Virus record (IMG/VR): IMGVR_UViG_3300037882_000456
Location: 1 to 64,000 of that record
DNA: 64,000 bases
From: a virus
Direction: 5' to 3' (one strand)
Positions 11,496 through 60,861 of this stretch are shown piece after piece. Within the stretch, counting starts at the first letter, position 1, and every line of letters starts with the position of its first letter. The notes under the pieces are model-generated. The model was not told where the DNA came from and ran no database searches. It saw only the letters and a list, made by a program, of their open reading frames with translations. A program made the position numbers and the translations under genes.

Positions 11496-12752
11496 TTATA
11501 GTGATCGAACGGTGAAGCGATCCGCCCAAATATCGGACTGCGACTTCTCAATGACAGGGGCTACCTCGTCACGATCCGCAGACTTGCGACCAACGATGGA
11601 CTTTTCCACACTGCCCAAACGCTCGGTGACGGCAGCGAGTGCCTCAACCGATGCTCCCTGTGACTTGGTCACAGTCTCGTTGATTGTTGAACCAAGGGCT
11701 TCAACCTTGGCGTTTGTCTCTGTAGCGTTAAGGGCAAGACCCTCAACTGCCTTGGTGATACTCGAAAGAGTACCGGATAGCGAACCGACAGCCTCAGTGA
11801 GACTTGCTAGTTCGGCCTTCCAATCAATTTCCTCGACCGCAGCCTCGGGAGCGGTTGTCTCTGCGACAACTGCTTCTGCGCCAGCCTCAGCGGTGGCAAC
11901 TACGGTGTCGGAAGTGTCGGACTTCTCTACAACGACCTCTTCGAGTACGGCTACCGTCTCGACGGCCTTTTCTACTGTTTCATCAGCCATAACTTGTTCA
12001 ACACCTTCTTCCTTTTGTACCGCTGGCAATGCGGTCATGTTTTTTAGTAATCCGGCAATTGCTTGTGCCTTTTCTGTGGATGAGCCCTCGGATGCAATCC
12101 AACCGACCTTTTCCCCAGACGTTCCACAAACAGAACAGCCATCTGTCCCAATTGTAGCAAGTTTATCGTCAGAACACCAGAAAACATCCTGAGTTTCGAC
12201 ATCAACTGCAATACCGGAAATCTGTGTGTCACCATTGTCCATCTTTTGAACGGAGAATACGTTCGCAAGATGATTGGCTGGTGAGTCCACCAAACTTAAT
12301 TCGTTAAGGATATACGCCTTGATAATGGTAATCCAGGTATTCAATTCCTCACTGAATACATCTTCCTTTTCAGTAACAAGGCCACCAATGGAGAAACCCG
12401 TGAGCGTCTTGTCTAGAACCTTTTCCCAGGTGGAAGCCGCGCCGCGAGAAACGTAAACATCAACATAGATGCCTTCGTACATCTTCTCTGTGGCTGGATC
12501 GTAGTACATCTTCTCTCTGATAGAAACAACTCGACCGGCTGCGATCTTGTCGTGCATTTCACGAACGTTACCGCCCCATGCTTCGAACGCGGCCTTAGAT
12601 GCAGAGGAAAGGACAATGTCGCCTTGGCGATCCAAATTGTCCAGCGTGGCAAAACCAGAAACGATTCTTCGCTCCTGGTCAACCTTCATAATCGGGACGC
12701 TTAGATTAAGCGCGCCGTCATGGGATTCCCAGTGGCTCTTAGTAATTTCCAT
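11496..12752 (-). CDS. Capsid maturation protease fused to scaffold
   Basis: 418 aa. Residues 1-165 are an XkdF/S78-like prohead protease: His67 in REMH, Ser121 in TGFSIGG, and the ELSLVDSPAN block at 151-160 match the expected catalytic framework. A small Cys-containing insert follows (Cys193, Cys206, Cys209). From about residue 250 to the end the protein is Ala/Glu/Val-rich and predicted coiled, as in scaffolding domains. It would cleave itself and the capsid N-terminus during head maturation. Within it an internal Met starts a segment (MADETVEKAVETV) similar to the capsid protein N-terminus. Confidence 0.85.
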   Translation of the reverse strand: MEITKSHWESHDGALNLSVPIMKVDQERRIVSGFATLDNLDRQGDIVLSSASKAAFEAWGGNVREMHDKIAAGRVVSIREKMYYDPATEKMYEGIYVDVYVSRGAASTWEKVLDKTLTGFSIGGLVTEKEDVFSEELNTWITIIKAYILNELSLVDSPANHLANVFSVQKMDNGDTQISGIAVDVETQDVFWCSDDKLATIGTDGCSVCGTSGEKVGWIASEGSSTEKAQAIAGLLKNMTALPAVQKEEGVEQVMADETVEKAVETVAVLEEVVVEKSDTSDTVVATAEAGAEAVVAETTAPEAAVEEIDWKAELASLTEAVGSLSGTLSSITKAVEGLALNATETNAKVEALGSTINETVTKSQGASVEALAAVTERLGSVEKSIVGRKSADRDEVAPVIEKSQSDIWADRFTVRSL

Positions 12753-17992: not shown

Positions 17993-19150
17993 CTAGACGG
18001 AGACGAATCTCTCGGGAATAGAATACGACGGCAGACCGTCATTTTCAAGGTACAGACGTAGGGCCTGCTCATCAATTGTACCACGATGGGCGCAGACCAG
18101 AGAGCCCTCCTCGACGTACACGGACTTGACGTTGTACCCGCGAGCGCGAAGCATATTGCAAATCTCTACAGGGAACACAGAAAAGCCACTCACCTTTGCC
18201 TTGCCTCTACCGATCAACTCGATCAAATCGCCATGAGCCTCTATAACGTCGCCGGTATCTACAAAGTCCTTCTTTTGATAACCGGAACCATCAATGGTCC
18301 CGACAGTCATCTCGCTAACAAGTCTGTCGCCAGAGCCCTCTACCATTGGTGCCATCCAAAAGAAAGGCTCGCTCGCCATGCGTGCGCCTAAGATTCCTGC
18401 CTCGGTACACGAGTAAACGTCTACGATCTCTGGGTTGCCGAATACAACCTTGGCTTGCTCAATCGAATCCTCACCTAGTGGGGCCGATGCGGATAGAAAG
18501 CAGCCAAACTTTCGCTGATATCCTGCTGACCACAACTTGCTGACAACCATGCCCTTCGTCATAATAGAAAGGTCATCTGCCTGGACAAATGCGCTCAGGC
18601 TGTCTGCCGTTGGTCTTTCTGTCATCATAGACAGGGGAACCTCTAGGGCAAGTGCGGCGAGATAAGAAAGAACCGTCGTTTGGAGTGGAGCCGTCATAAA
18701 GGCGCGACCGATGAGCAGGGCGGGCATTGTCTTTTCTCCCCAATCAATCATCTTCTCGATCATATCTGGCTGCATGAAATACGGCTCTACGATGTTGATC
18801 TTTGGCGTTCCAGATGTGCCAGACGACACGGACGCAAGAGAGCCGTCAGGAAACCCTGAGGCGTGTGCCAGAAACTGACCAGTGAGGCGATCCGCCACTT
18901 CTCCACGAAAGAAGTTGGGAAGGGCAAAGACCCTTGCGCCGCCTGCGAGAAGCCCTAAAACCTGGGGGATTTGAATAGGGTCGCCCGTAATGGAAAGAAC
19001 AACAGCCTCTCCCTTTACACCTTCCGATGAGCGAAGGGCTGCCGCCTCGAACTCCCTGCCAGACATTGCTTCGCCGTCAAGCCTGATCGGCTCGGGCATC
19101 TGACTAATCTTGTCAATCAGATAAAGAGCATCAAGCGACGGTGGCACCAT
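17993..19150 (-). CDS. ANL-superfamily adenylate-forming enzyme
   Basis: 385 aa. Motifs in order: SSGTSGTPK (109-117), the A3 phosphate loop; YSCTE (246-250), A5; DTGD (298-301), A7; and GRGKAKVSGFSVFPVEI (314-330), A8 hinge. These enzymes activate a carboxylate as acyl-AMP and often pass it to a thiol or amine. The protein stops at YSIPERFVSV, just before the A10 block with the catalytic lysine. The start is the ATG at 19150, overlapping the upstream cupin gene. Finding such an enzyme inside a virion operon is unusual; its substrate cannot be read from sequence. Confidence 0.85.
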   Translation of the reverse strand: MVPPSLDALYLIDKISQMPEPIRLDGEAMSGREFEAAALRSSEGVKGEAVVLSITGDPIQIPQVLGLLAGGARVFALPNFFRGEVADRLTGQFLAHASGFPDGSLASVSSGTSGTPKINIVEPYFMQPDMIEKMIDWGEKTMPALLIGRAFMTAPLQTTVLSYLAALALEVPLSMMTERPTADSLSAFVQADDLSIMTKGMVVSKLWSAGYQRKFGCFLSASAPLGEDSIEQAKVVFGNPEIVDVYSCTEAGILGARMASEPFFWMAPMVEGSGDRLVSEMTVGTIDGSGYQKKDFVDTGDVIEAHGDLIELIGRGKAKVSGFSVFPVEICNMLRARGYNVKSVYVEEGSLVCAHRGTIDEQALRLYLENDGLPSYSIPERFVSV

Positions 19151-19547
19151 GACCGAGTCTCGTGTACATCTCGCCCATCGTTTCAACTTCGCCGTTTGGG
19201 CCGTATGCCAGAGGCGGCTTGTGTGCATAGTTAAACGTGATGAACAGAGTGTACGCTGGGGTGTCAGAAACCGATGCAATCTTGTGCAACTGAGTGTTGT
19301 TCATCCTATGGATGTTAAACCTGCGCCTCATGTGGTTTACAAAGCCATCTTCTACAGCGTCTGCCTTGAAAACATTCTCTGAGTACCAGCCCTTTAGACC
19401 GATGGAGACAAAGTCACATCCATGGTTGTGAGGAAATGCCTCCTCGTCATCAGGAACCGTGATCCTATTAAGCATCACACTAAAGAACCTGTTATGAATG
19501 TACTGCTTGCGAGACATACTTGATCCGCCTCGGTCGTCAAACTTCAC
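19131..19547 (-). CDS. Cupin-like protein A
   Basis: 138 aa, paralogue of cupin B. Contains HNRFFSVMLNRI, PHNHGCDFVSIGLKGWYSE and FNIHRMNNTQLHKI followed by TLFITFNYAHKP, matching a metal-binding cupin. GTG at 19547 is chosen because GGAGG lies eight bases upstream inside the preceding micro-ORF, whose TGA overlaps this GTG (GTGA). It is coupled to the ANL gene by a 20-base overlap. Confidence 0.65.
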   Translation of the reverse strand: MKFDDRGGSSMSRKQYIHNRFFSVMLNRITVPDDEEAFPHNHGCDFVSIGLKGWYSENVFKADAVEDGFVNHMRRRFNIHRMNNTQLHKIASVSDTPAYTLFITFNYAHKPPLAYGPNGEVETMGEMYTRLGHGATVA

Positions 19548-22030: not shown

Positions 22031-23016
22031 TACGCTGCACCCGACTCGATTGTGATTGCCTTGACGCCGAGGGCAGCGATGTCAGAGTTAAAGTAGATAT
22101 TCTTCATGGCTCCACCAATGGTTAGTTTGATTGCTCCACCACCGCCGTTGTAATCAAGACAGATCATTTGGAATGGGTGGTCAGCCGATACCAAGCCCTT
22201 CGGGGCAGACCTGTTAGATGTCACAATGGAATACCCTGGTGCGGCACCGGTGCAAGTAAGATAAGAAGAGTAGATCGTCTGTGCGCCAGTGATCGCTCCG
22301 TATGGAGTTACGAGTTCTGTATCTCCTGGCGTCGAGGCATTGGCAGTATTGTACTGCGTTGCTGACTCTGGCCCAACAAAGTGATCGCTGAACAGGACTC
22401 TAGGCCCAGGGCCATTGTTGTACACAAGGCCAACGCGGTACATCTTGATCAGATCAAATATCACGCCCGTCTTTGTGGCGAAAACACCTGCATACCTGTT
22501 GTTTCCTGTCATTGAATTGAGCAACTGGCTATACTGAAATGGAGTGCTAAAGTTCAAGTCCATTAACTTCAACCATGTTGCGCCGCTCTTGTAGTGAACT
22601 ACCCAGCCATATTGACCTGGCGACATCTTTATTGTCTGAACGGATCCGCGCGCGAATGGGCATGGAATCTCGGTAACTGACGCAACACCGGGGCCGAGCA
22701 CCGAGGGAGTTGTGCCTGCAAGTTTCAGCGTTAGAAGAGTGTCGCTACCAACATAAGAGATTTCAAACTTCACGCCCGTGGTGAAGTTAAGGCTGTTTGT
22801 GTTTGTAAAGAGGCCAGCACCGTCCTGAATTGCGAACGTGGATTCGACTGTCATTGGGCTAGAGTTGATCACGCTACTTGCGGCTACCATTGCCAAAGTT
22901 CCATTAGCGGAGTTATTGACCACGCCGGTTGCTCCGCTTGTGCCCCACGAACCCGCGATCTCAGTGACGCCTAGGATTCCTGGGACCGAGCCATCAATCA
23001 TAAAGAATGGCTTCAT
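22030..23016 (-). CDS. LamG-like virion protein
   Basis: 328 aa made of two similar beta-sandwich units: residues about 20-190 and 200-320 both have strand patterns such as VKFEISYVGSDTLLTLKLAG and end in a motif binding-like loop. The domain type suggests glycan recognition at the tail. Overlaps the collagen-like gene by 4 bases, which suggests both form one fibre assembly. Confidence 0.6.
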   Translation of the reverse strand: MKPFFMIDGSVPGILGVTEIAGSWGTSGATGVVNNSANGTLAMVAASSVINSSPMTVESTFAIQDGAGLFTNTNSLNFTTGVKFEISYVGSDTLLTLKLAGTTPSVLGPGVASVTEIPCPFARGSVQTIKMSPGQYGWVVHYKSGATWLKLMDLNFSTPFQYSQLLNSMTGNNRYAGVFATKTGVIFDLIKMYRVGLVYNNGPGPRVLFSDHFVGPESATQYNTANASTPGDTELVTPYGAITGAQTIYSSYLTCTGAAPGYSIVTSNRSAPKGLVSADHPFQMICLDYNGGGGAIKLTIGGAMKNIYFNSDIAALGVKAITIESGAA

Positions 23017-24563
23017 GGAGTTGTCCAGTCTAGCCTGAAAGTGACCTTAGTTGGAGCAGTTCCTGTAATCGAGGTTGCGGCGATCTGAATTACGCTGCCT
23101 GCTGTACCTGCATGAGAGACGCTAAATGCCTGATATGTTACACCGGCGGTTACTGTCATCGGTGCTCCAAAGTTTGTTCCATCCTTTACCAACTGGATGT
23201 TAAATGAATCCGAGCCTGCGACTGCGGTGTAAACCACCCTGGTGATTGTGAAAGCATCTGGCATTGGGAGTCTTGCATCATATGTCTTTGACGCTAGCGT
23301 GCCGATGCCGCCGAATTGCGCCGTTACTGCACCGTTAGTGCCGTTGGTTCCAGCAGCGCCATCAGATCCGTCAAGTCCTGGGTCGCCCTGGATACCTTGA
23401 ATACCCTGGATTCCTTGATCACCTTGGATTCCTTGAATGCCCTGAGCGCCGTCGCTGCCATCGAGGCCTGCATCACCCTGAATTCCCTGGATTCCTTGAA
23501 TACCCTGATCGCCTTGATCGCCCTGGGGGCCAGGAACCGTAGAGTCTGCGCCTGGGATGCCCTGAATTCCTTGGATTCCTTGGATTCCTTGATCACCCTC
23601 TGGACCTGGAACTGTAGAGTCTGCGCCGTCAGCGCCATCGACACCTGGAATTCCCTGAATGCCTTGGATTCCCTGGATACCCTGGTCACCTTCTGGTCCC
23701 GGTACGGTCGAGGCAGCGCCAGTCTCACCTTGAATGCCCTGGATTCCCTGAATGCCCTGGATTCCTTGATCTCCGGTGTCACCCTTATCACCTTTGTCAC
23801 CCTTGATTCCCTGGATGCCCTGATCTCCCTGGTTTCCGAGATCGCCCTTTAAGCCCTGAATTCCCTGATTACCCTGGATTCCCTGGATCCCCTGGTCACC
23901 AGTGTCACCCTTAACACCCTGAATGCCTTGATCGCCAGTGTCACCCTTAATGCCCTGAATTCCTTGAATACCCTGAATTCCCTGCTCACCCTGAGGGCCT
24001 CTGATCTGACCAGCGTTCGTCCACTGAGTCCCAGTCCAAACCATACCATCGCCTGCGATGCCGACACCAGACTGAGAAGCAGCAAGGATCCACATATCAC
24101 CTGACTGTGGTGACTCTAGAGCGATTGCAGACCAAGTTGCCGTTCCCTTGACAACAATTCCAGAGCCGTCTTGTCCATCAAGACCATCCACACCGGGCTC
24201 GCCACGGAACGTTCCAACGTCAATCCAAGAAGAACCATCCCAAACCCAAAGGTTATCTCCAACAACATAAGAAACTACGCCGTTTCCAGATGGGTACGCT
24301 GCAATAAGGTCGCCAGAGGTCGGGAATGATCCGCCGATAGTTCCGTAGCCAAGCGTCTTAAGACCATAGGTTCCGTCTGTACGACGGAAAAGAACCTGAT
24401 AAGCGCGGCCACCAGATGTGCTTACATCAGCCAAGTCGTCAAGCGAAATAGTCGCGCCGGTGCTTGTGGTGGGCTGGCCTCCTACTGGGGCCGTTGAAGA
24501 AAACCCTGGAAGGCCTGGGGAAGTTACAATTCCCGATTCTTGGGACTCATCGTATACAGGCAT
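23013..24563 (-). CDS. Collagen-like tail fibre protein
   Basis: 516 aa. Residues about 187-412 are Gly-X-Y triplets (GIQ repeated many times, with GDK, GDT and GPE/GPQ interruptions such as STVPGPEG), expected to form a collagen-type triple helix. The N-terminal part has LDDLADVSTSG and a WxGTQW-type module common in tail fibres; the last 90 residues form a beta-rich C-terminal domain, probably the trimerising tip. The -10 TATAAT ends 6 bases before the ATG, so the mRNA is likely leaderless. Confidence 0.9.
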   Translation of the reverse strand: MPVYDESQESGIVTSPGLPGFSSTAPVGGQPTTSTGATISLDDLADVSTSGGRAYQVLFRRTDGTYGLKTLGYGTIGGSFPTSGDLIAAYPSGNGVVSYVVGDNLWVWDGSSWIDVGTFRGEPGVDGLDGQDGSGIVVKGTATWSAIALESPQSGDMWILAASQSGVGIAGDGMVWTGTQWTNAGQIRGPQGEQGIQGIQGIQGIKGDTGDQGIQGVKGDTGDQGIQGIQGNQGIQGLKGDLGNQGDQGIQGIKGDKGDKGDTGDQGIQGIQGIQGIQGETGAASTVPGPEGDQGIQGIQGIQGIPGVDGADGADSTVPGPEGDQGIQGIQGIQGIPGADSTVPGPQGDQGDQGIQGIQGIQGDAGLDGSDGAQGIQGIQGDQGIQGIQGIQGDPGLDGSDGAAGTNGTNGAVTAQFGGIGTLASKTYDARLPMPDAFTITRVVYTAVAGSDSFNIQLVKDGTNFGAPMTVTAGVTYQAFSVSHAGTAGSVIQIAATSITGTAPTKVTFRLDWTTP

Positions 24564-30682: not shown

Positions 30683-31306
30683 ATGCGATATGAGAAAACT
30701 AGACAGGCATTCGTCACCATCACGGCCAGCGCACTTATTGCTGCTGGTCTTGTTAGTTTCGGGCCTGCGACGACAGCGACACCAGTTGAGCCAAACGCAC
30801 CGATCCAGTCCGTCAGGGCTGCGACACACGAGGGGCACCAAAGGGTTTCGCGTTCATCTACCCGCGTAGCACCGCCGCAAGTGAAGAAGAACATTGTGGT
30901 GAAAAAGAAGGCTGTGAAGCCTACTAAAAAGGTCGTCAAGAAGAAGAAGTCTATCAGCAAGTCGAGCGCAACCCACACGGCAAGCGGTAGGAAGATGACG
31001 ACAAGTTCTGCTGGCAACAGGGCGTTGGGTAAAAAGATGGCAGCATCCAGAGGTTGGACGGGCAGGCAGTGGTATTGCCTAGAAGATCTTTGGAGCCACG
31101 AGTCTCAGTGGTCTACTACGTCGGGTTCGACAAGTAAGGCCTATGGGATTCCTCAGGCACTTCCAGGTACGAAGATGGCTACAGCCGGATCAGACTGGAA
31201 GAGCAACCCTGCTACACAGATCAAGTGGGGCTTTAAGTACATCAGTGGCCGATACGGGACTCCTTGCGGAGCCTGGGGTCATTTCCAGTCACACGGCTGG
31301 TACTGA
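30683..31306 (+). CDS. Secreted transglycosylase-like protein
   Basis: 207 aa. Residues 1-32 form a signal peptide (RQAFVTITASALIAAGLVSFG). A Lys-rich, Pro-containing linker (KKNIVVKKKAVKPTKKVVKKKK) follows. The last 85 residues match the lysozyme-like fold of actinobacterial transglycosylases: WYCLEDLWSHESQWSTTSG with the catalytic-type Glu, AYGIPQALPGTKM, then WGFKYISGRYGTPCGAWGHF. AAGGGAGG precedes the ATG. Located at the start of the early arm, not with the endolysin, it may remodel the host wall from outside during infection. Confidence 0.8.
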   Translation: MRYEKTRQAFVTITASALIAAGLVSFGPATTATPVEPNAPIQSVRAATHEGHQRVSRSSTRVAPPQVKKNIVVKKKAVKPTKKVVKKKKSISKSSATHTASGRKMTTSSAGNRALGKKMAASRGWTGRQWYCLEDLWSHESQWSTTSGSTSKAYGIPQALPGTKMATAGSDWKSNPATQIKWGFKYISGRYGTPCGAWGHFQSHGWY

Positions 31307-31309
31307 TGC

Positions 31310-31315
31310 TATAAT
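31310..31315 (+). promoter_or_regulatory. Extended -10 promoter before the Ntn hydrolase gene
   Basis: TGCTATAAT with TATAAT at 31310-31315; no convincing -35. The short leader holds GAGAGGAAA before the TTG start at 31339. Confidence 0.6.
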
Positions 31316-31338
31316 CGTATAGACCGAGAGGAAATGCG

Positions 31339-31929
31339 TTGACCATCATTGTCGCCGTCGAACATAAGGACGGCGTAGTAGTTGCCTGCGACAGTCAAGT
31401 TACCGATACGGGAACGTCGTTCTTGATGCATAAGTCGCAGAAGAAGGTCGGCCACCGAGGTCCATACATTATCGGAACGGCAGGTCGTTTGCGTACTGGG
31501 CAAGTCCTATTGAACGCAGACGATCTGCCTGTTCCTGATGAGAACCTAAACGATGACGAACTTAACCGATTTATGATCACGAAGTTCGCGCACGCAGCAC
31601 AGGAAGCCATGAAGGATTCGGGAACCGAGCAGGTTCTTGATCACGAGCGCCTGCTGACTGAATCCGAATTGATCGTCTGTGTACAGGGCCGCTCCTACAT
31701 GATTGGTGAGGATTACTCTGTCATGCGCGCAGGAGACGAGTCGAAGGTAGCCAACGGTATTGCTATTGCTGGCTCTGGGTTCAAGTTTGCTCTTGGAGCC
31801 TACTACGCACTCTCCCTCCGCAATCGAAAGATGGATCCTGTTGAGGTTGCTACGACGATGGTTGAGGCTGCTTTACGCTGGGATCAGTATTGTGGCGGCG
31901 ACATTGAGGTTCACGAACAGCCGAAGTGA
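31339..31929 (+). CDS. HslV/proteasome-beta-like Ntn hydrolase
   Basis: 196 aa. The sequence after the initiator Met is TIIVAVEHKDGVVVACDSQV, which follows the N-terminal nucleophile pattern of HslV and 20S beta subunits: Thr1 once Met is removed, Asp at position 17 from that Thr, and Lys residues at 34/35 (one off the usual Lys33). AGSGFKFALGAYYAL further on matches the family GSG block, and the C-terminus (GGDIEVHE) aligns with the usual last strand. TTG start with GAGAGGAAATGCG. No chaperone ATPase is encoded nearby; it might act alone or with host factors. Confidence 0.8.
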   Translation: MTIIVAVEHKDGVVVACDSQVTDTGTSFLMHKSQKKVGHRGPYIIGTAGRLRTGQVLLNADDLPVPDENLNDDELNRFMITKFAHAAQEAMKDSGTEQVLDHERLLTESELIVCVQGRSYMIGEDYSVMRAGDESKVANGIAIAGSGFKFALGAYYALSLRNRKMDPVEVATTMVEAALRWDQYCGGDIEVHEQPK

Positions 31930-31930
31930 C

Positions 31931-31959
31931 TTGACAGATCTTTTTCTGTCGTGTACGAT
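31931..31959 (+). promoter_or_regulatory. Promoter with leaderless start
   Basis: TTGACA (31931-31936), 17-base spacer, TACGAT (31954-31959), then 6 bases and ATG 31966. Confidence 0.75.
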
Positions 31960-31965
31960 GGTCGC

Positions 31966-32373
31966 ATGAAACAATACTTCCTGATCACAGGTTCACGGGA
32001 CTGGCCGAACGATCCAGTCAGCGTGAAGATCATTACAGACAAACTTGACTCTCATCTGCGCTGGCATCCAGACACGGTGATGATTAACGGTCGGTGCCCA
32101 ACGGGTGTCGATCAGATCTGCTACGAGTGGGCCATTCTCAATAAGGTTGAACTGCTGACGTACCCTGCCGAGTGGGAGAAGTACGGGAAGGCAGCAGGCC
32201 CTAAGCGCAACATGGAGATGTTGCAAATGCTTATGTCCAAGAAGTCGTCCATTGTTTACGCGTTCTTCTACGGCGATCCTGCGACCTCTCGCGGTACTGC
32301 CAACATGGTTCGCGCCTGCCGAATGCAGGGAATCGAGCCAACAGAGAAGGTGCTACCTCGTGTACAAGTATAA
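31966..32373 (+). CDS. SLOG-like (DUF2493) nucleotide-binding protein
   Basis: 135 aa. The N-terminus KQYFLITGSRDWPNDP and later MINGRCPTGVDQICYEWA with PKRNMEML match the YspA/DUF2493 group of the SLOG superfamily, Rossmann-like proteins thought to bind nucleotides. ATG 31966 is chosen because it lies 6 bases after the -10; an ATG at 31951 overlaps that promoter. Its C-terminus overlaps the thermonuclease start. Confidence 0.8.
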   Translation: MKQYFLITGSRDWPNDPVSVKIITDKLDSHLRWHPDTVMINGRCPTGVDQICYEWAILNKVELLTYPAEWEKYGKAAGPKRNMEMLQMLMSKKSSIVYAFFYGDPATSRGTANMVRACRMQGIEPTEKVLPRVQV

Positions 32374-43814: not shown

Positions 43815-43886
43815 GGTCGATTAGTGTAGAGGTTCGCACAGGTCCCTGTCAAGGATCTAGTACGGGATCGTTCCCCGTATCGACCG
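43815..43886 (+). tRNA. tRNA-Asp (GTC)
   Basis: Acceptor GGTCGAT/ATCGACC, anticodon stem GGTCC/GGATC with loop CTGTCAA, T stem ACGGG/CCCGT. The T loop ATCGTTC departs from the usual TTCRANY. No encoded CCA. Confidence 0.85.
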
Positions 43887-43897
43887 CGTAAGTTCGA

Positions 43898-43979
43898 GCG
43901 TCGTGGCTCATGGAGAGCAGGGAGGTTGTAACCCTTCCGTCGTTAGACAAAGGTGGTTCGATTCCATCACGGCGCACCA
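43898..43979 (+). tRNA. tRNA-Tyr (GTA)
   Basis: Acceptor GCGTCGT/ACGGCGC, anticodon loop TTGTAAC, long variable arm (GTC/GAC stem), T loop TTCGATT, encoded CCA. Confidence 0.9.
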
Positions 43980-43980
43980 C

Positions 43981-44055
43981 ACCGCCATCGTATAATGGAC
44001 AATACGGGAGACTTTCAATCTTCTAATCGGGGTTCAATTCCCCGTGGCGGTACCA
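43981..44055 (+). tRNA. tRNA-Glu (TTC)
   Basis: Acceptor ACCGCCA/TGGCGGT, anticodon loop CTTTCAA, T loop TTCAATT, encoded CCA. Confidence 0.9.
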
Positions 44056-44056
44056 T

Positions 44057-44130
44057 GGGAGTATGGTGTAGTGGTAACACAGAAGATTCCAAACCTTCTG
44101 CCTGAGGTTCGATTCCTTGTACTCCCGCCA
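44057..44130 (+). tRNA. tRNA-Trp (CCA)
   Basis: Acceptor GGGAGTA/TACTCCC, anticodon loop TTCCAAA closed by an A-C mismatch, T loop TTCGATT, encoded CCA. Confidence 0.85.
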
Positions 44131-44139
44131 CCGCCCTAT

Positions 44140-44157
44140 CGGGCAAGGGTTTGCCCG
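44140..44157. repeat. Inverted repeat copy 9
   Basis: CGGGCAA gggt TTGCCCG, ten bases after tRNA-Trp, then a GCGCG AAG CGCG stem and TGTCAAG (44170-44176). Confidence 0.8.
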
Positions 44158-44221
44158 CGCGAAGCGCGGTGTCAAGCCCTTTAAGAACTTCAAACAAACT
44201 TCACCGGATCCTGAGAATCGC

Positions 44222-44250
44222 TTGACTTCGAGGCCACATGCTGCTAGACT
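44222..44250 (+). promoter_or_regulatory. Promoter
   Basis: TTGACT (44222-44227), 17-base spacer, TAGACT (44245-44250). Leader has CACCAACAAGGAAGAAGG before ATG 44282. Confidence 0.75.
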
Positions 44251-44281
44251 AGCATCACACCAACAAGGAAGAAGGATTCAA

Positions 44282-45256
44282 ATGCCTGCTCTTATCGATT
44301 CATTCGCCTCGCGTGCTCAGGTCGCGTGGCATGGCCTCGGCACCGTGTTCGATGCCGATGAGAACGTGAACACCTCCAAGATGCTCGAACTGTCCGGTCT
44401 GGATTGGACCGTTGACCTCGTGCCGCTCGTCACCAACGACGCAACCAAGATGGACGCTGGCGCGTTCGCCTCTGTCCGTACCAACAAGGACGGCGCTCAG
44501 GCTGTCCTCGGTGTCGTGGGTGAGCGTTACACCGTGGTTCAGAACTCGGACGCTCTCGCGTTCGCTGACAACATCCTCGATGGTGGTGGCCGATGGGAAA
44601 CTGCCGGTGGCCTAAAGGGTGGCGCTGTCGTGTTCGGCTCCATGGCTGTCCTCGATGACATTGTGCTCGACCCGCAGGGTGCGGCTGACAAGATCAAGAC
44701 GTACCTGCTCATCAGCACTTCTCACGATGGTTCGTCTGCCATTCAGGTGTCCTCGACTCCTGTTCGCGTGGTTTGCTCGAACACTCTCAACATGGCCCTA
44801 AAGGGTACCAAGAACTCCGTCAAGTTCCGCCACACGGCGAGCATTGAGGGCAAGGTTCTTCACGCTCGCCAGTCGCTCGGCATGGCTTCGACGTACTTCG
44901 ATGCGTTCGAGGTTGAGGCTCAGGCGCTGTTCGCTCAGGCTGTCACGAACGACAAGTTCGACAAGATCGTGAAAGCGATCTACCCTGAGCCCAACCGCGT
45001 CGATGCTGCCAAGGTCGCCGTGACCAAGTGGGACAACCGCCGTGAGCGTCTGTTTGGCCTGTGGAATGGCCCGACCAACGCCAACATCAGCGGCACCGCT
45101 TGGGCTGCGCTCAACGCTGTGACCGAGGAAAACCAGTGGTACCGTCAGGTTCGCGGTGGCAACACTGAGAACGGTCTGGCTGCTGGTGCTGGCTTCGATG
45201 ACGCTACCAACGCGTTCCGCTCGAAGGCCCTGAGCGTCGTCAAGGCGTTCGCCTAG
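44282..45256 (+). CDS. DUF932 / TIGR03299 phage-plasmid protein
   Basis: 324 aa. Typical blocks: AWHGLGTVFDADENV near the N-terminus, GVVGERYTVVQNSDALAFAD, GGRWETAGGLKGGAVVFGSM, VRVVCSNTLNMAL, and a C-terminal WYRQVRGGNTENGLAAGAGF. The family is common on phages and plasmids; function unknown. AAGAAGG before the ATG. Confidence 0.9.
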   Translation: MPALIDSFASRAQVAWHGLGTVFDADENVNTSKMLELSGLDWTVDLVPLVTNDATKMDAGAFASVRTNKDGAQAVLGVVGERYTVVQNSDALAFADNILDGGGRWETAGGLKGGAVVFGSMAVLDDIVLDPQGAADKIKTYLLISTSHDGSSAIQVSSTPVRVVCSNTLNMALKGTKNSVKFRHTASIEGKVLHARQSLGMASTYFDAFEVEAQALFAQAVTNDKFDKIVKAIYPEPNRVDAAKVAVTKWDNRRERLFGLWNGPTNANISGTAWAALNAVTEENQWYRQVRGGNTENGLAAGAGFDDATNAFRSKALSVVKAFA

Positions 45257-45314
45257 TCTCCGGTGGGGGCACCTGGGAAGATCCCCTCGTGTCCCCACTG
45301 GTTTCACCTTGACA

Positions 45315-45343
45315 GCCCGCCTGCGGCGGGCAGTCTTTGCCCG
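45315..45343 (+). terminator. Double hairpin, includes inverted repeat copy 10
   Basis: GCCCGC CTGCG GCGGGC (45315-45331), overlapping CGGGCA gtctt TGCCCG (45327-45343); only one can form at a time. TGTCAAA follows at 45345. Confidence 0.7.
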
Positions 45344-45371
45344 ATGTCAAACTCTTCTAATTACGAACCCC

Positions 45372-45400
45372 TTGACATTTCACGGGAGTTCTGGTAGGCT
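45372..45400 (+). promoter_or_regulatory. Promoter
   Basis: TTGACA (45372-45377), 17-base spacer holding TCACGGGAG, TAGGCT (45395-45400). Leader CCCAACAAACAAGGG. Confidence 0.75.
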
Positions 45401-45426
45401 GTGCCCAACAAACAAGGGAGCGAATC

Positions 45427-45792
45427 ATGGACAAGCGAGCATATCTCGTATCGGCTGGGCTAGCACAAGGAACTCGTGGCAGGTTTTCTGCTGAGGCTGA
45501 GGCTGCTTGGACTGCTCATCTGATCGAGCAGGGTAATGATGAGATCACGCCTAGTGACTCAGAGGTTCCTGACCTCCCTCGTGATGGATTCCATCTTGCC
45601 ACGCTCCCTCCTGTTTATAACATTGTAAGAGAGCAAGAGAGCGCGTACACGGTGGATGAGCAGGGTCATCTTATTGGTCACAGCGCATGTGGTGACTGTA
45701 AGCGACAGATCCGCAACTGTGAGTGTGCTGGTGGGCCTTGGGGCTTGTCATACATCGCTCCCCGTCAGAAGGCCTACCTAGTGTCCAACTAG
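45427..45792 (+). CDS. Unknown protein with RGRFS motif and zinc site
   Basis: 121 aa. The N-terminus LVSAGLAQGTRGRFSAEAEAAW resembles the RGR-helix element of Lsr2-type and related actinobacterial proteins. The C-terminal half holds ACGDCKRQIRNCECAGG, a likely four-Cys zinc site. Possibly nucleic-acid-binding. CAAGGGAGCG before the ATG. Confidence 0.65.
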   Translation: MDKRAYLVSAGLAQGTRGRFSAEAEAAWTAHLIEQGNDEITPSDSEVPDLPRDGFHLATLPPVYNIVREQESAYTVDEQGHLIGHSACGDCKRQIRNCECAGGPWGLSYIAPRQKAYLVSN

Positions 45793-45813
45793 GGCGGGCA
45801 ACATCTGCCCGCC
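45793..45813. repeat. Inverted repeat copy 11
   Basis: GGCGGGCA acatc TGCCCGCC right after the stop; TGTCAAG at 45823-45829, TTTACGAAGATCGCGGGAA at 45842-45860. Confidence 0.8.
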
Positions 45814-45874
45814 AGGGCCAGATGTCAAGCCATTACGAACCTTTACGAAGATCGCGGGAATCCACCTGAATCAC

Positions 45875-45903
45875 TTGACATACACCCCGCCTGCTGGTAG
45901 ACT
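45875..45903 (+). promoter_or_regulatory. Promoter of the rIIA/rIIB-like operon
   Basis: TTGACA (45875-45880), 17-base spacer, TAGACT (45898-45903). Leader CACCAACAGAAAGG before ATG 45935. Confidence 0.75.
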
Positions 45904-45934
45904 TACCTCACACCAACAGAAAGGAACCACCCGC

Positions 45935-53399: not shown

Positions 53400-53677
53400 C
53401 TCTTGGGTGGCGAGCCCAGCACCTTTTCTAGAGAGCAGGAGACGCCATAACCCCTGAGAATGCTCTGCATGAGATTCATTCGGTCGATAACCTTCATCTT
53501 ATCGGGAAGGTCAAGTGGTGCGATCTGATCAAGGTAAACTCTGATTCCAATGTGCTGCATTTCAGGCATTTCAATAAGGTCGATTGTCACCGGCACCTTT
53601 AAGCCGATGGGACCAAGGTTGTGAATCGCTCTGCGTGCTGCAATAGGAACATTGACGGTACTAGCAAAGGGATTCAA
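53396..53677 (-). CDS. Unknown protein
   Basis: 93 aa from TTG 53677, which has GGAGAG seven bases upstream and overlaps the WhiB stop; the longer frame back to 53746 would lie wholly inside the WhiB gene. Contains KVPVTIDLIEMPEMQHIGIR. Not recognised. Confidence 0.65.
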   Translation of the reverse strand: MNPFASTVNVPIAARRAIHNLGPIGLKVPVTIDLIEMPEMQHIGIRVYLDQIAPLDLPDKMKVIDRMNLMQSILRGYGVSCSLEKVLGSPPKR

Positions 53678-54002
53678 TGTTATCTCTCCAAACCTTCCAG
53701 TCGTCCTCGGACTTATGCTTATTAAGTTTACCATCGATTGAGCCATCTGTCAAATAGACACCGCCCCACACGCCCCACCGCTTCTCTTTAACCCCAACCT
53801 CGTGACAGTCAAGATTCACAGGGCAGGAGAGGCAAACCTGATCAACCGCTGAGGCTGTCACAGAATCACTGTATGTCAGCGAGCCCTCAGGAGCGTCCGT
53901 GTCGTCAAAGAAAAGGTTCGGGTCCATCCGATTGCACGAGGCCATCGCTTCCCAACGAAGATCGTCAGGGTCAATCCCTAGTTCATCTAGAATTGACGAC
54001 AT
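53661..54002 (-). CDS. WhiB-like regulator 2
   Basis: 113 aa. Cys23, Cys57, Cys60 (CLSCP) and Cys66 for the Fe-S cluster, then WGVWGGVYL at 76-84, the canonical WhiB motif, and a short charged tail. Probably binds the host main sigma factor and redirects transcription, or antagonises host WhiB proteins. More canonical than the copy at 40460. Confidence 0.9.
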   Translation of the reverse strand: MSSILDELGIDPDDLRWEAMASCNRMDPNLFFDDTDAPEGSLTYSDSVTASAVDQVCLSCPVNLDCHEVGVKEKRWGVWGGVYLTDGSIDGKLNKHKSEDDWKVWRDNIESLC

Positions 54003-54213
54003 TTACATCCCTGTCATCAAAGATCCATCTGCCCTGAGTGTCACACGAGACGCGCTTCTGTGTATGCCAGAAGCCATCAACCTGAACACCGGCCTTCTTC
54101 ATCCACCCAGCATAATCCTTACGAGTGATGAGAACGTCCCAGCCCTCAAAGGCCATGTTGGGCTGCTTCTCAACGAATTGATCAATCTCATCATAGATTA
54201 CGAAGTGAGACAT
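53983..54213 (-). CDS. Unknown protein upstream of WhiB
   Basis: 76 aa, aromatic and charged (SHFVIYDEIDQFVEKQPN). Overlaps the WhiB start by 20 bases, so both are translated together. Not recognised. Confidence 0.6.
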   Translation of the reverse strand: MSHFVIYDEIDQFVEKQPNMAFEGWDVLITRKDYAGWMKKAGVQVDGFWHTQKRVSCDTQGRWIFDDRDVNVVNSR

Positions 54214-54214
54214 C

Positions 54215-54547
54215 TTAATACTCCAATACAGTTAACTTGCGATTCGCCTTGGCCTCTTTGACCTTGGCCTTGTATGGGTAATAGGATAGCGGGTTAATAG
54301 CAACCACTGTGGTGATGTCCCTCAGAACAGAATCCTTGCGCCTCACAACAACGCGGTACAAGGTCGTGTATTCATTTGTGATATCTGCCAACTGGTATAG
54401 TTGATCGGTCAAACGCTTATTGTCATAGGCAGCGACGAACACCCTGCCCACTTCATCGCGTCGTTCGCCTTCGATAGCGACCATAAACGCGCGAGTGAGC
54501 AGGGTGAAGTCGTTAAACGACCGATCCGCTACAAAAAGAATGCTCAT
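54215..54547 (-). CDS. Unknown alpha/beta protein, likely leaderless mRNA
   Basis: 110 aa, SILFVADRSFNDFTLLTRAF at the start and a basic Lys-rich end. The opening strand-loop pattern resembles SLOG-like proteins, tentatively. ATG 6 bases after TAGAAT (54559-54554). Confidence 0.6.
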   Translation of the reverse strand: MSILFVADRSFNDFTLLTRAFMVAIEGERRDEVGRVFVAAYDNKRLTDQLYQLADITNEYTTLYRVVVRRKDSVLRDITTVVAINPLSYYPYKAKVKEAKANRKLTVLEY

Positions 54548-54551
54548 GTAT

Positions 54552-54734
54552 CTATTCTACCTTCCCAATGAGCGAATTGTCAAGCGAAAATGCACTATCA
54601 CGCCCAATTAGTGCATAACGTGACTCACAATCCTCACTTCCACAGAGCGACAGTATGATTAGCGTTCCATCACCAGTGTCAGCAAGAACCTCAAACTTCC
54701 ATTTGTTGCGCTTGCAGATATCACACTTATCCAC
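54552..54734 (-). CDS. Small zinc-binding-like protein
   Basis: 60 aa with CDICKRNKW and CGSEDCESRY, a four-Cys pattern. AGGAGGTGCCC precedes the ATG. Follows the HNH gene. Confidence 0.65.
   Translation of the reverse strand: MDKCDICKRNKWKFEVLADTGDGTLIILSLCGSEDCESRYALIGRDSAFSLDNSLIGKVE
54554..54559 (-). promoter_or_regulatory. -10 promoter, leaderless start
   Basis: Minus strand TAGAAT followed by AGATAC and ATG 54547. It lies inside the end of the next gene. Confidence 0.55.
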
Positions 54735-54744
54735 AGGGCACCTC

Positions 54745-55257
54745 CTAGTATTCGATATAGCGTGTGGTTCTAGGCATTACGCCTGGGCCACCACACATCC
54801 AGCACCAACTGTGAGCATCGTGCCCACACTCATCTGCTGACCTTCTGGCCCACCAGGGCCACTTCTGAGGACCAGCCTCGTGACCACAGACAGGACAGAA
54901 GCAGTCCTTTTGCAGCATTCTACCGTTCATACACGTTTCGCAAACCTGCTCGCGCTCTGCCTTGGGAACCTTCGGCCTACGGCTGTTAGCCTTAGGCTCT
55001 AGCGTACCGTCTGGAAGAAAAAGCCTGTTGTCCTTCTCCTGGTTGCAGGGAAAGTGCGCCAACTTGTAGTTATCAACGTGGTCAAGACCACCGCGAGAGC
55101 GGGGCAAAACGTGGTCAATTGTGTAATCTGAGTAGTCATCCTCGGAGTCCCTCTCGAAAGGTTCAGGACAGAGATAGCAAAAGTCGCCATCCCTTTCAAC
55201 AAGGAACTGAACAACTTGGACTCTCGTAGTCAGCAGGCTAGTTTGATCTAACAACAT
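54745..55257 (-). CDS. HNH endonuclease
   Basis: 170 aa. FCYLCPEPF, then TIDHVLPRSRGGLDHVDNYKLAHFPCNQEKDNR is a complete HNH core (His-Asn-His with flanking Cys pairs). The C-terminal 70 residues add two zinc ribbons (CETC...CPVCG and CGHDAH...CWMCG). May cut DNA in packaging, mobility or host takeover. Not next to a terminase here, so a free-standing role is likely. Confidence 0.85.
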   Translation of the reverse strand: MLLDQTSLLTTRVQVVQFLVERDGDFCYLCPEPFERDSEDDYSDYTIDHVLPRSRGGLDHVDNYKLAHFPCNQEKDNRLFLPDGTLEPKANSRRPKVPKAEREQVCETCMNGRMLQKDCFCPVCGHEAGPQKWPWWARRSADECGHDAHSWCWMCGGPGVMPRTTRYIEY

Positions 55258-55269
55258 GATCTAGCCTTT

Positions 55270-55419
55270 CTACTTGGGAGTTAGGGTAAACTCCTTGCCA
55301 ATGGATTCGATAACTGCAAGTGCCTCTTCGGTTGTTTCAATGTCTGCGGCGAGGTTGATCAAAAGAATGGTGCCGCCATCCTCGTCAAGACTGAATGATG
55401 CGTCTAGCAGGGTAAACAT
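55270..55419 (-). CDS. Small acidic protein
   Basis: 49 aa (FTLLDASFSLDEDGGTILLI), ATG 55419 with AAGGAG. Too short for usual gene finding but well placed between the tRNA-Gly and HNH genes. Confidence 0.55.
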   Translation of the reverse strand: MFTLLDASFSLDEDGGTILLINLAADIETTEEALAVIESIGKEFTLTPK

Positions 55420-55438
55420 TGATTCTCCTTATAGGTTA

Positions 55439-55515
55439 TGGAGCGAGTACGGGGATTCGAACCCCGACTAAATGATTGGAAGTCACTTGTGCTGACCATT
55501 GAACACTACACTCGC
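55439..55515 (-). tRNA. tRNA-Gly (TCC)
   Basis: Acceptor GCGAGTG/TACTCGC, anticodon loop CTTCCAA, T stem CGGGG/CCCCG with TTCGAAT, encoded CCA. Confidence 0.9.
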
Positions 55516-55550
55516 GTGAGTCTCTATTGTAGCACGTTTGAGCGTGGCTG

Positions 55551-55769
55551 TCAAGCCGATGTAACGTTCCCACAGCGACAGCAGTGACCGCCCTGGCTCT
55601 TCCAAACCCACACATGACCACCACTAAACAAGCAGTCCATGGAGTCAATGTAGTCATTTCGCCAGCGGTACTGCGTCTCAACACCCTGGTGATCGCCCTC
55701 GTGGAACACAGGGAACGTACACCAAATGTCATTAGCGTTAAGCGAGGGGCAGCGTTGTGGCCTACTCAT
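55551..55769 (-). CDS. Small Cys/Trp-rich protein
   Basis: 72 aa, CPSLNANDIWCTFPVFHEGDH in the first half and HCCRCGNVTSA at the end, a four-Cys zinc site. ATG 55769 overlaps the previous stop (ATGAGTAG). Confidence 0.65.
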   Translation of the reverse strand: MSRPQRCPSLNANDIWCTFPVFHEGDHQGVETQYRWRNDYIDSMDCLFSGGHVWVWKSQGGHCCRCGNVTSA

Positions 55770-55929
55770 CAACACCACCGACAAGTTCAATCAGAGTATC
55801 GAGTTCGGGTTCGTCACCGAAAGCGTTGCATTCACCAACATACTGACGAATTGCGTTGAACTTGTCCTTGTATTCAGCAATCATGGCGTCAATCTCTGAC
55901 TCTCTCAGGGTCCAAAGGTCGTCACTCAT
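55762..55929 (-). CDS. Small acidic helical protein
   Basis: 55 aa (SDDLWTLRESEIDAMIAEYK). Overlaps both neighbours by 8 bases; GAGAGGAAAAGAC upstream. Not recognised. Confidence 0.6.
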   Translation of the reverse strand: MSDDLWTLRESEIDAMIAEYKDKFNAIRQYVGECNAFGDEPELDTLIELVGGVDE

Positions 55930-56059
55930 TGTCTTTTCCTCTCAGCCAAGCCCACACAGCAACAGCGGTGCCAGCAATTGCTAGCCAGATAGCGTGCCAG
56001 TGGATCAGAAGGTGTAAATTGTGTGTAACCCATTCAGGTAGCGTGACATTCGCATTCAC
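55922..56059 (-). CDS. Single-pass membrane protein
   Basis: 45 aa from GTG 56059: a short outside part, one membrane helix (HAIWLAIAGTAVAVWAWL), and a basic end. Supported by overlaps with both neighbours. Confidence 0.55.
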   Translation of the reverse strand: MNANVTLPEWVTHNLHLLIHWHAIWLAIAGTAVAVWAWLRGKDNE

Positions 56060-56168
56060 AGGTTAAAATCCTATCTCCGATGTCCCTGCCATTCCAGCAC
56101 TTCTTGTGGTTACCGTCCAGGCACCACCCAAGTTTATGAGTGGTGCCTGGACTTGGCCTTCGTGCCAA
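56034..56168 (-). CDS. Small Cys/His-rich protein
   Basis: 44 aa ending in LGWCLDGNHKKCWNG ... LTCECECHAT, a pattern like small actinobacterial CxxGxHxxC...CxCxCH proteins. TTG 56168 is the best start (AAGAAG upstream). A 13-base-pair hairpin (stems 56117-56129 and 56142-56154) lies within the start of the gene, so the N-terminus is uncertain. Confidence 0.5.
   Translation of the reverse strand: MARRPSPGTTHKLGWCLDGNHKKCWNGRDIGDRILTCECECHAT
56117..56154 (-). terminator. Large hairpin after the lipoprotein gene
   Basis: GTCCAGGCACCAC / GTGGTGCCTGGAC, 13 perfect base pairs with a 12-base loop, starting about 16 bases after the lipoprotein stop. Confidence 0.6.
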
Positions 56169-56169
56169 C

Positions 56170-56724
56170 TTACTTCTTGCTGTTGAGGCGCGGCACATCA
56201 ATCGGCAGCGGCTGGTCAGCGTAGATGTAATCGAGGTTGGTAGCAACGTACGCACCCTCGGTGGTGAAGAAGAATACGCCATCTTCGTTAGGACCGTACG
56301 AGCCGTCATCACCAGGAGCATTCACAACGGTCGGGCAGCGACCATCGCCACCACCAGGGCAACCATCGATCACGAGGCTGTCAGTGGTCATCTGCGAGCC
56401 GTTGGACGAAACCTTGCCCTTAACGGCGTAGTATCCAACAATGTTTCCGTAGTTCATCACATAAACATAGCCAAGTAGGTTCGGCTTGTTCGTGCGGAGC
56501 AGACGCTCCTTGATGTTGCGACGCTCCTGAGAGTCCTTCAACTGCGCGACAGGATACGGAACGGCGTCCGACTGCTGCTTAAAGGCAGTCTCAGTCTGCT
56601 TCTGGCCTTCGCCCTGAGCAGTGTTGGGCTTTACCTCGTCCATGCAAGCGGTCAGGGGAAGCATCAGGGCGAGAGCACCGATGGCGAGGCCGATCTTACG
56701 CTTGTTGTTTGAAAAGATATTCAT
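56170..56724 (-). CDS. Predicted lipoprotein
   Basis: 184 aa. N-terminus NNKRKIGLAIGALALMLPLTAC is a lipoprotein signal with lipobox LTAC, so the mature protein begins at that Cys on the outer face of the membrane. The rest is soluble with a GYVYVMNYGNIVGYYAVKGKV strand block and a Cys pair. Phage lipoproteins often block superinfection; this is inference. Preceded by a membrane-anchored gene and ends in a strong hairpin. Confidence 0.75.
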   Translation of the reverse strand: MNIFSNNKRKIGLAIGALALMLPLTACMDEVKPNTAQGEGQKQTETAFKQQSDAVPYPVAQLKDSQERRNIKERLLRTNKPNLLGYVYVMNYGNIVGYYAVKGKVSSNGSQMTTDSLVIDGCPGGGDGRCPTVVNAPGDDGSYGPNEDGVFFFTTEGAYVATNLDYIYADQPLPIDVPRLNSKK

Positions 56725-56745
56725 GTTTATCCTAACGTTTGTGGA

Positions 56746-57177
56746 CTACTTGCAGTCCGTGGCTGGGTCTTGGTCATCGATGACCTGGGGAAGATCAGTC
56801 GAGCGGAAATCCTCACGACTGTACTTGCGAGCATCAGCGTTGTAGGTTTCTACAGCACCGACACAGAACTGCTGGACGCCTGTGTAGTTGGTACGCAGGG
56901 TCGGATCAGTAGGATCGAGGTCAAGAGCCTCCTTAGCGATGGCAACCTTCTTGTCTGCTGCCTTGATGTCAGCGTAGGACTGCTCGAAAGCCTCCTGCGC
57001 TTGAATGCGGTTATTGGCCGTGTTCTTCTGCTTGATAGCATTTCCCTTGCCCGCTACGTTCGACGTAGCAACGCCGATGTACCAAATGACAGCGGGAAGA
57101 ATGATGATCACGATAACGGCAACAACGATGGCAACGACGACGCCAGCACTACCAGCGTCTCTGCGATTCTTAAGCAT
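56746..57177 (-). CDS. LemA-like membrane-anchored protein
   Basis: 143 aa. One N-terminal membrane helix (AGVVVAIVVAVIVIIILPAV), then a helical domain (NNRIQAQEAFEQSYADIKAA) resembling LemA-type proteins. ATG 57177 has AGGAG four bases upstream and follows the phosphoesterase stop directly. Function unknown. Confidence 0.65.
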   Translation of the reverse strand: MLKNRRDAGSAGVVVAIVVAVIVIIILPAVIWYIGVATSNVAGKGNAIKQKNTANNRIQAQEAFEQSYADIKAADKKVAIAKEALDLDPTDPTLRTNYTGVQQFCVGAVETYNADARKYSREDFRSTDLPQVIDDQDPATDCK

Positions 57178-57184
57178 ATTGCTC

Positions 57185-57796
57185 CTAGTCATTGTAGTCT
57201 GAGTTGAATAGATCAGTTAGCGTTTGTGCTTCAACAGGGAACCAGTCCCAAACATCAACGCCAACGTTTACATCCGTACCACGCTTTTTCCACATGCTGT
57301 GAACGTGGCCGTGAATTGTGGGGCCAGTAGGTCGGTACTCAGCGAACCTATCTGGCTCGTACTCAAAGTCCTGACCAGTCTTGTCCCTAGCCTGCCTGCG
57401 GAAATCGCATTGAGCAGGGAAGTGACTGAGCCAAACCTTTTTCGTTCCAAGGAAGTGAGGCACCGGACCTTGCTGAATCTCTAGACCAGCATCCTGATAA
57501 CGCTCAACAAACTTGGCGTACTTCTTGTTACCAATCCAACATTCGTCATGGTTGCCAGGGATGAAGGTCTTGATACCCTTCATCTTCTCGACCCAACTGA
57601 GAGCGTTGGTCACCGAGCCAAGGGACAGGTCGCCTACAATGTAGACGCTGTCATTCTCTTGAACTCTGTCGTTGTACCGAGCCACCAGTTCACGATCCAT
57701 CTGCTCAACGCTGTTCCACGGGCGGTCAGGCTCGTGGCGCAGGATGTTCTTGTGACCGAAGTGCTGGTCTGCGGTGTACCAAGTCGTTGTCGTCAT
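57185..57796 (-). CDS. Calcineurin-like phosphoesterase
   Basis: 203 aa. Metal-binding motifs in order: ADQHFGH, VGDLSLG, GNHDE, LSHFP and HGHVH, the full set for a two-metal metallophosphatase. Likely a phosphodiesterase acting on nucleotides or nucleic acid; substrate unknown. ATG 6 bases after TAGGAT (57808-57803), so probably leaderless. Confidence 0.9.
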   Translation of the reverse strand: MTTTTWYTADQHFGHKNILRHEPDRPWNSVEQMDRELVARYNDRVQENDSVYIVGDLSLGSVTNALSWVEKMKGIKTFIPGNHDECWIGNKKYAKFVERYQDAGLEIQQGPVPHFLGTKKVWLSHFPAQCDFRRQARDKTGQDFEYEPDRFAEYRPTGPTIHGHVHSMWKKRGTDVNVGVDVWDWFPVEAQTLTDLFNSDYND

Positions 57797-57802
57797 AGGA
57801 GT

Positions 57803-57808
57803 ATCCTA
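57803..57808 (-). promoter_or_regulatory. Extended -10 promoter, leaderless start
   Basis: Minus strand TGGTAGGAT followed by ACTCCT and ATG 57796. Confidence 0.6.
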
Positions 57809-57827
57809 CCAGAGTCGGGGCTGTGTG

Positions 57828-58925: not shown

Positions 58926-59344
58926 TCCTCTACATCCTCAACCATGATCGTGAATCCATAGCCGTAGTAGAATGGGTTTCCACATGACCAGCCAACAGTC
59001 AGTTTAAGGATGTCTCCCATATCTGCGTAGATGTGCCACGTTGAGTAACCGTCTGTCGTACCGACGCCTGTGATCAAGTGACCGACCATTTCAGGGTTCA
59101 AGAGGAACGCCTGAACTTCGGTGAACGCACAGCAGTCAGCCTCACCAATCAACTTGACGCGCTTGCCGTTGTCAAGGGTAATGATCGTAGCCTGATCCGT
59201 GCCGTAATACTGTCTCTGTGCCTCGCCTCTTTCAACACTGACGATCTTATGACCGACCAGTACGCTCTCTAGGCTGTCACGGCTTTCAACCATGGTGCCG
59301 TCATCTTCCCATTCGTCAAGAATTTCAGGTTCGTAGATCGTCAT
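58922..59344 (-). CDS. Conserved actinophage protein
   Basis: 140 aa, with LVGHKIVSVERGEA, ATIITLDNGKRVKLIGEADCCAFTEV, and GYSTWHIYADMGDILKLTVGW, matching an unnamed family (DUF7448-like) frequent in actinophages. Role unknown. Overlaps the secreted-protein gene by 4 bases. Confidence 0.75.
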   Translation of the reverse strand: MTIYEPEILDEWEDDGTMVESRDSLESVLVGHKIVSVERGEAQRQYYGTDQATIITLDNGKRVKLIGEADCCAFTEVQAFLLNPEMVGHLITGVGTTDGYSTWHIYADMGDILKLTVGWSCGNPFYYGYGFTIMVEDVEE

Positions 59345-59366
59345 TAGTTTCTCCTAAGTTTGTAGG

Positions 59367-59442
59367 TGGTACCCCTTGTCGGATTCGAACCGACACCGTA
59401 ACGGGCTTAAACCGTCTGCCTCTACCGTTGGGCTAAAGGGGC
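59367..59442 (-). tRNA. tRNA with anticodon TAA (Leu by anticodon)
   Basis: Acceptor GCCCCTT/AAGGGGT, anticodon stem GACGG/CCGTT with loop TTTAAGC, T stem GTCGG/CCGAC, encoded CCA. The variable loop is only five bases, though bacterial tRNA-Leu normally has a long arm. Confidence 0.75.
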
Positions 59443-59689: not shown

Positions 59690-59728
59690 TTCTAGGCCCT
59701 CGTGCGCGGCTGTCGTTATCTGCACCAG

Positions 59729-59801: not shown

Positions 59802-59834
59802 GTATAACTATACTACCACAGTCGCTTGGTGGTG

Positions 59835-60810: not shown

Positions 60811-60861
60811 GTATAGTCACCTCCTCAGGTTACCTATAACATGGCAGTCCTCCAATTGAAT

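Follow-up and report, generated by a model that had tools for sequence, protein, structure and literature searches.

The window analysed here, the first 64,000 of the 71,881 bases of an IMG/VR virus record that is possibly a fragment (GC of approximately 52%), encodes a conserved and, judging from sequence and model, probably active proteasome-like hydrolase of an actinophage (Table 1). We propose that it is a threonine hydrolase, putatively ATPase-free, that acts before virion assembly in the takeover of the host, and put the probability of this explanation as a whole at roughly 60%. A first-pass annotation had proposed a phage-encoded proteasome/HslV-like protease at this locus, and the sequence, the predicted fold and the genome context all bear this out.

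Table 1. Coordinates of the hydrolase gene, its key residues and associated features. Positions are those of the window unless a locus is named.
Feature	Position	Strand	Remarks
Proteasome-like (HslV/BPH-type) Ntn hydrolase ORF	31339..31929	+	196 aa, TTG start, without propeptide
AGAGGA, Shine-Dalgarno-like	31327..31332	+	6 bases before TTG; read by eye
Promoter-like site with TGCTATAAT (extended -10)	31288..31315	+	10/12 match; consensus only
Thr2 codon, catalytic Thr1 after Met removal	31342..31344	+	T in 113/113
Asp18 codon, Asp17	31390..31392	+	D in 111/113, E in 2
Lys36 codon, Lys33 position	31444..31446	+	K in 113/113
G-S-G block, G145-S146-G147	31771..31779	+	both Gly 113/113, middle Ser 84/113
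Asp182 codon, D166-like Asp	31882..31884	+	D in 106/113
Upstream neighbour, transglycosylase-like protein	30683..31306	+	phrog_12661, E 5.8e-35
Downstream neighbour, YspA/SLOG-like protein	31951..32373	+	PF10686, E 1.9e-12
Separate head maturation protease	11496..12752	-	phrog_9427, E 3.2e-91
WhiB-family regulator match	53757..53954	-	PF02467, E 1.7e-12, above cut-off
CDC48/PAN-like AAA ATPases	L179:793-2394, L180:876-2480, L181:766-2352		~10 kb before protease

Family, predicted fold and active site

The profile phrog_1040, "peptidase HslV family", matched residues 1-194 of the hydrolase with an E-value of 2.8e-23. PF00227 passed its curated cut-off narrowly and over residues 3-46 only (E 3.6e-5, 23.9 bits, cut-off 22.4), and in a six-frame search it reached 19.3 bits, below the cut-off. 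The cut-offs of the HslV equivalogs were missed (NF003964, 32.0 against 137 bits; TIGR03692, 31.4 against 157.75 bits), as was that of the archaeal proteasome beta profile (26.6 against 224 bits), and no match to TIGR03690, the bacterial proteasome beta profile, was listed at E≤1. A direct search of the sequences of solved structures gave weak matches to proteasomes and BPH, the best with an E-value of 0.01, and the hydrolase is therefore a distant member of the family.

An AlphaFold2 monomer model, for which the input was an alignment of the hydrolase with 27 viral relatives, had a mean pLDDT of 87.5 and a pTM of 0.85, with helices at residues 51-58 and 72-93. The top solved match by Foldseek was BPH (5ovs, E 2.2e-10), and VIA-align gave Z-scores of 19.5 for BPH (5ovs/5ovt/5ovu; 175 residues, rmsd 2.7-2.9), 17.9 for HslV (168 residues, rmsd 3.1), 17.1 for yeast beta5 and 16.9 for the M. 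tuberculosis proteasome. Residues 2-196 of the model align to residues 1-188 of the BPH chain, placing Thr2 on the catalytic Thr1. Among predicted viral structures, 28 proteins matched the model at E≤0.001, one of them from Gordonia phage Daredevil. The fold predicted for the product is that of a proteasome-type Ntn hydrolase.

The translation begins M-T-I-I-V-A-V, and since no in-frame ATG, GTG or TTG is found between the upstream stop and the TTG start, the protein has no propeptide. The TTG start is ordinary in this family, being used by 12 of 75 relatives with a placed N-terminus, next to ATG in 56 and GTG in seven. The features on which the first-pass annotation relied, Thr after Met, Asp17, the GSG block and the missing propeptide, are thus all present; it did not mention the lysine at the Lys33 position or the use of TTG.

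Conservation was assessed over 113 distinct aligned proteins, namely the window protein, 10 from named phages, two from Streptomyces and 100 from viral contigs, with identical proteins counted once and one row that runs off its contig (L072) dropped before counting. The Asp at what we take to be the Asp166 position, Asp182 of the hydrolase, is absent in seven of them, five from phages that infect Gram-negative bacteria and both chromosomal copies from Streptomyces. The window protein is unusual in having Cys185, where most aligned relatives have Thr. Eighty loci came from a search in which one pattern includes Met-Thr, and their Thr is therefore present partly by construction; a second IMG/VR search used patterns outside the N-terminus, and 80 of at least 561 loci were fetched. 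Thr was found in all 75 N-termini that were placed without requiring it, and the other five of the 80 also read Thr. A homologue without the Thr nucleophile, or a fold other than Ntn hydrolase, had been named beforehand as evidence against the assignment; Thr is invariant among the 113 proteins and the model shows the proteasome fold. In each of 13 close pairs of relatives dN was 0.09-0.38 and dS was higher, a sign of purifying selection as measured on these relatives. Taken together, phrog_1040, PF00227, the predicted fold, the invariance across 113 proteins and the purifying selection in close relatives show that family membership of the hydrolase is not due to chance.

Relatives, host and known systems

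By tblastn against 50,697 phage records the window protein matched 28 at E≤10, mostly weakly, the best being Actinomycetia phage DSL-LC01 (2e-14); Microbacterium phage Pumpernickel matched at 1e-7. With a relative as query, 250 phage records matched, mostly Salmonella and Escherichia phages, with seven of Microbacterium. In IMG/VR, one pattern set gave 157 relatives and the other, described above, at least 561. Close relatives of the window protein itself were looked for and not found, and megablast of window positions 20000-44000 matched no phage record. A bacterial genome scan revealed two Streptomyces loci carrying homologs, and in a profile search of Actinomycetota 2 of 296 genomes matched, one weakly; homologs therefore look rare on chromosomes. 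One of the Streptomyces loci (L092:3225-9840) also contains D-Ala-D-Ala dipeptidase, NUDIX and radical SAM/B12 genes, as well as ABC transporter and HAD genes read by eye, and is perhaps a small biosynthetic cluster.

With support of 100/98, a midpoint-rooted tree groups the window protein with 105 proteins of named actinophages and viral contigs and leaves the Streptomyces pair and the phages of Gram-negative hosts outside this clade. Its exact place is unsure because of its long branch (2.35) and an identity of at most 35% to any aligned relative. These sequences suggest that the enzyme belongs to a large clade mainly of viruses of actinobacteria, mostly WhiB-bearing where tested.

The record itself carries a WhiB-family regulator, a type that according to the available part of the DSL-LC01 paper (PMC10611076) occurs only in actinobacteria and the phages that infect them, and the host is therefore very probably an actinobacterium. 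Of 41 related records, drawn from the 90 loci L002-L091 and used again for PF07724 below, 27 had WhiB, and among 14 control genomes only Corynebacterium did; at a looser E≤10 the profile matched in five controls, in one of them above the cut-off. Among 40 representative loci, of which the window is one, WhiB follows on the same strand in 10, its start 601-1233 bases past that of the protease, and lies somewhere within the fetched stretch in 18, as counted by BLAST linkage and with related phages among the 40 that are not independent; loci with WhiB close behind the protease gene include L012, L013 and L002. In the window the two genes are 22 kb apart on opposite strands and this link is absent.

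Phage-encoded proteasome homologs, PPH and AAH, were published by Fuchs, Alva and Lupas in 2021 (PMC8665760) and such genes are annotated in many phages, so that the novelty implied by the first-pass annotation was too high. As far as the available sections of that survey go, propeptides are absent outside beta and HslV, no AAA+ partners were found, and PPH and AAH resemble the window enzyme in being phage-borne, without a propeptide and without a co-occurring AAA+ partner. PPH, however, are described there as having about 140 residues and no helix H2, whereas the window enzyme has 196 residues and two helices ahead of its second half (51-58 and 72-93), and it is not a PPH by this description. 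In the same sections, Actinobacteria-specific phages yielded no AAH, whereas the window clade has actinobacterial markers, AAH (KEGG OC.661151) being compared here by description; the two Streptomyces chromosomal homologs outside the phage clade are possibly AAH. BPH, the best solved match, is likewise described in that survey as without a known unfoldase or propeptide, but it is bacterial, forms a double heptamer with a long acidic pore loop and is 17-18% identical to the window enzyme, for which we have a monomer model.

The profile phrog_1040 is named after HslV, and HslV, like the window enzyme, starts with Met-Thr; unlike HslV, the window enzyme falls below the curated cut-offs and has no HslU in the 71.9-kb record. 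Kin annotated as "protease" or "HslV family" occur in DSL-LC01, in Microbacterium phages Pumpernickel, LeeroyJenkins and WaterT and in Arthrobacter phages Hum25 and Pitbull. A Met-Thr start was read in the homologs of DSL-LC01, Pumpernickel, Hum25 and Pitbull, none of which exceeds about 35% identity with the window protein. Other phage papers, in the portions available, mention a "proteasome-like" or BPH gene as an annotation (PMC7289586, PMC8953757), and the words protease and HslV do not occur in the available part of the DSL-LC01 paper. In the titles and passages found by our literature searches, no phage proteasome homolog came with a function demonstrated by experiment.

Genomic context and the search for an ATPase

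The hydrolase gene lies at the start of a non-structural half of the window with many promoter-like sites. Past the YspA/SLOG-like gene, which has its own promoter-like site at 31931-31959, are genes for a nuclease and ThyX, with a ribonucleotide reductase with class II-type domains on the other strand, and the separate head maturation protease adjoins the portal and a head/packaging structural gene. The motif TTGACA-N16-18-TANNNT occurs at 23 sites in the window against 1.22 expected, all within 30295-63720 and none in the structural 1-30 kb, a one-sided placement with a chance of about 4e-7 by position alone. The promoter-like site of the hydrolase ends 23 bases before its start codon; TGNTATAAT was counted eight times in the window against 0.99 expected, and the looser promoter-like sites as a class 14 times against 8.8, slightly above chance. 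These consensus promoters suggest that the hydrolase is expressed before virion assembly. At some of the TTGACA-type sites the -10 precedes a start codon by just 7 bases, a spacing like that of leaderless genes.

Other features of the window were observed in passing. The tail region encodes a 428-aa protein (17993-19279, minus strand) that by eye looks like an AMP-forming ligase, with an SSGTSGTPK stretch and no Pfam match at 0.001, and a protein with long collagen-like repeats (23013-24563, minus strand; PF01391, E 1.4e-32). RIIA- and RIIB-like genes are found at 45875-48792 on the plus strand, in an actinophage-type record, and 19 tRNA genes within 43815-63212.

Neither PF07724 (ClpX/HslU-type, AAA_2) nor PF00004 (AAA) had a match in the 71,881-base record. 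The earlier statement that no HslU-like ATPase is seen therefore holds for this record, as weak evidence because the record may be incomplete. A search of neighbouring phages for an ATPase partner, also proposed at first pass, came out divided, with PF07724 matching none of 41 related records and PF00004 above its cut-off in 20 of 34. The strongest AAA group was in five large related records and looked CDC48/PAN-like when three of them were scanned, with Walker-type motifs read in the alignment consensus of this ATPase. After exclusion of 2 of 31 ATPase loci with too little downstream sequence, 22 of the remaining 29 had the ATPase 9.6-11.0 kb upstream of the protease and seven had no protease; the ATPase also occurred without it in 4 of 20 records searched whole. 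No pair is therefore claimed. AAA proteins similar to this ATPase occur in mycobacteriophages, which were not among the records matching the window protein with fair coverage by tblastn. The co-occurrence is at least as well explained by the gene order of one phage lineage, and a partnership is possible.

Proposed function and alternatives

Methionine aminopeptidase removes Met before Thr, and in our proposal the host enzyme would strip the initiator Met of the hydrolase and expose Thr1, which would cut peptide bonds. The subunits would assemble in the manner of HslV or BPH, into a single or double ring with a chamber that restricts access. Lacking its own ATPase, the enzyme may take proteins that are unfolded, small or specifically docked, or it may borrow a host unfoldase. 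Its synthesis would precede virion assembly and rely on promoters that resemble those of host sigma-70, and in the takeover it would remove or process proteins of the host or early proteins of the phage. The first-pass annotation had suggested that it could degrade host defence proteins or form a ring by itself. That it acts as a protease is not certain, since proteasome-like folds include the ligase connectase, as described in the available sections of the 2021 survey (PMC8665760).

Indeed, the enzyme could be a specific processing enzyme, an amidase or a protein ligase like connectase, a reading that is doubtful but deserves some weight: the family includes this monomeric ligase, and the window protein is small and has no ATPase partner. 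Connectase, however, is described in the same survey as lacking helices H1-H2, whereas the model has the two helices noted above, and it is absent among the 50 Foldseek matches listed, which does not exclude it. A partnership with an AAA+ unfoldase of the phage, after the model of HslV and HslU, we consider unlikely; the position of the CDC48/PAN-like ATPase upstream of the protease in large related records speaks for it, but the two genes are not adjacent, the ATPase also occurs without the protease, mycobacteriophages with similar AAA proteins were not among the protease matches of fair coverage, and the window record has no match to such an ATPase.

The suggestion at first pass that the protein replaces a host proteasome subunit did not fare well. 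Actinobacteria have 20S proteasomes, and the M. tuberculosis proteasome is among the fold matches, but no TIGR03690 match was listed, the archaeal beta score is far below its cut-off, a propeptide is missing, and the closest folds, BPH and HslV, form no alpha-beta assembly according to the sections of the survey cited above. On this profile, propeptide and fold evidence we rejected a substitute beta subunit entering the host 20S proteasome as very improbable. We give a similarly small chance to a degenerate, inactive copy: the TTG start, the long branch and Cys185 would fit one, but the key residues are all kept in the 113-protein alignment, the frame is open and TTG is shared with other relatives, and a pseudoenzyme was rejected. 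Capsid (prohead) maturation is hardly credible and was likewise rejected. Phages need a head protease, and some annotators write just "protease", but here a separate head maturation protease is encoded beside the head genes, and the hydrolase gene lies in the opposite half, on the plus strand, amid nucleotide-metabolism genes; the separate enzyme and the many promoter-like sites in that half both point away from a role in capsid maturation.

The proteasome-like hydrolase proposed here thus belongs to what is new in this analysis, a large clade with at least 561 IMG/VR loci, mostly WhiB-bearing where tested, in which the D166-like Asp is kept. The clade extends the 2021 survey, in the available sections of which no AAH was found in Actinobacteria-specific phages (PMC8665760). 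We also entertain, as an unlikely extension, that a separate branch of self-compartmentalised, ATPase-free Thr proteases has evolved in actinobacterial viruses, made early, often encoded beside whiB, and clearing or processing host regulators, WhiB-type regulators among them; if true, such a branch of viral Thr proteases would now be very common in environmental viruses. This large and little-studied clade merits a biochemical test, and its hundreds of environmental members, the kept active site and the kin in cultured Microbacterium and Arthrobacter phages offer a direct route to testing viral proteasome-like function.
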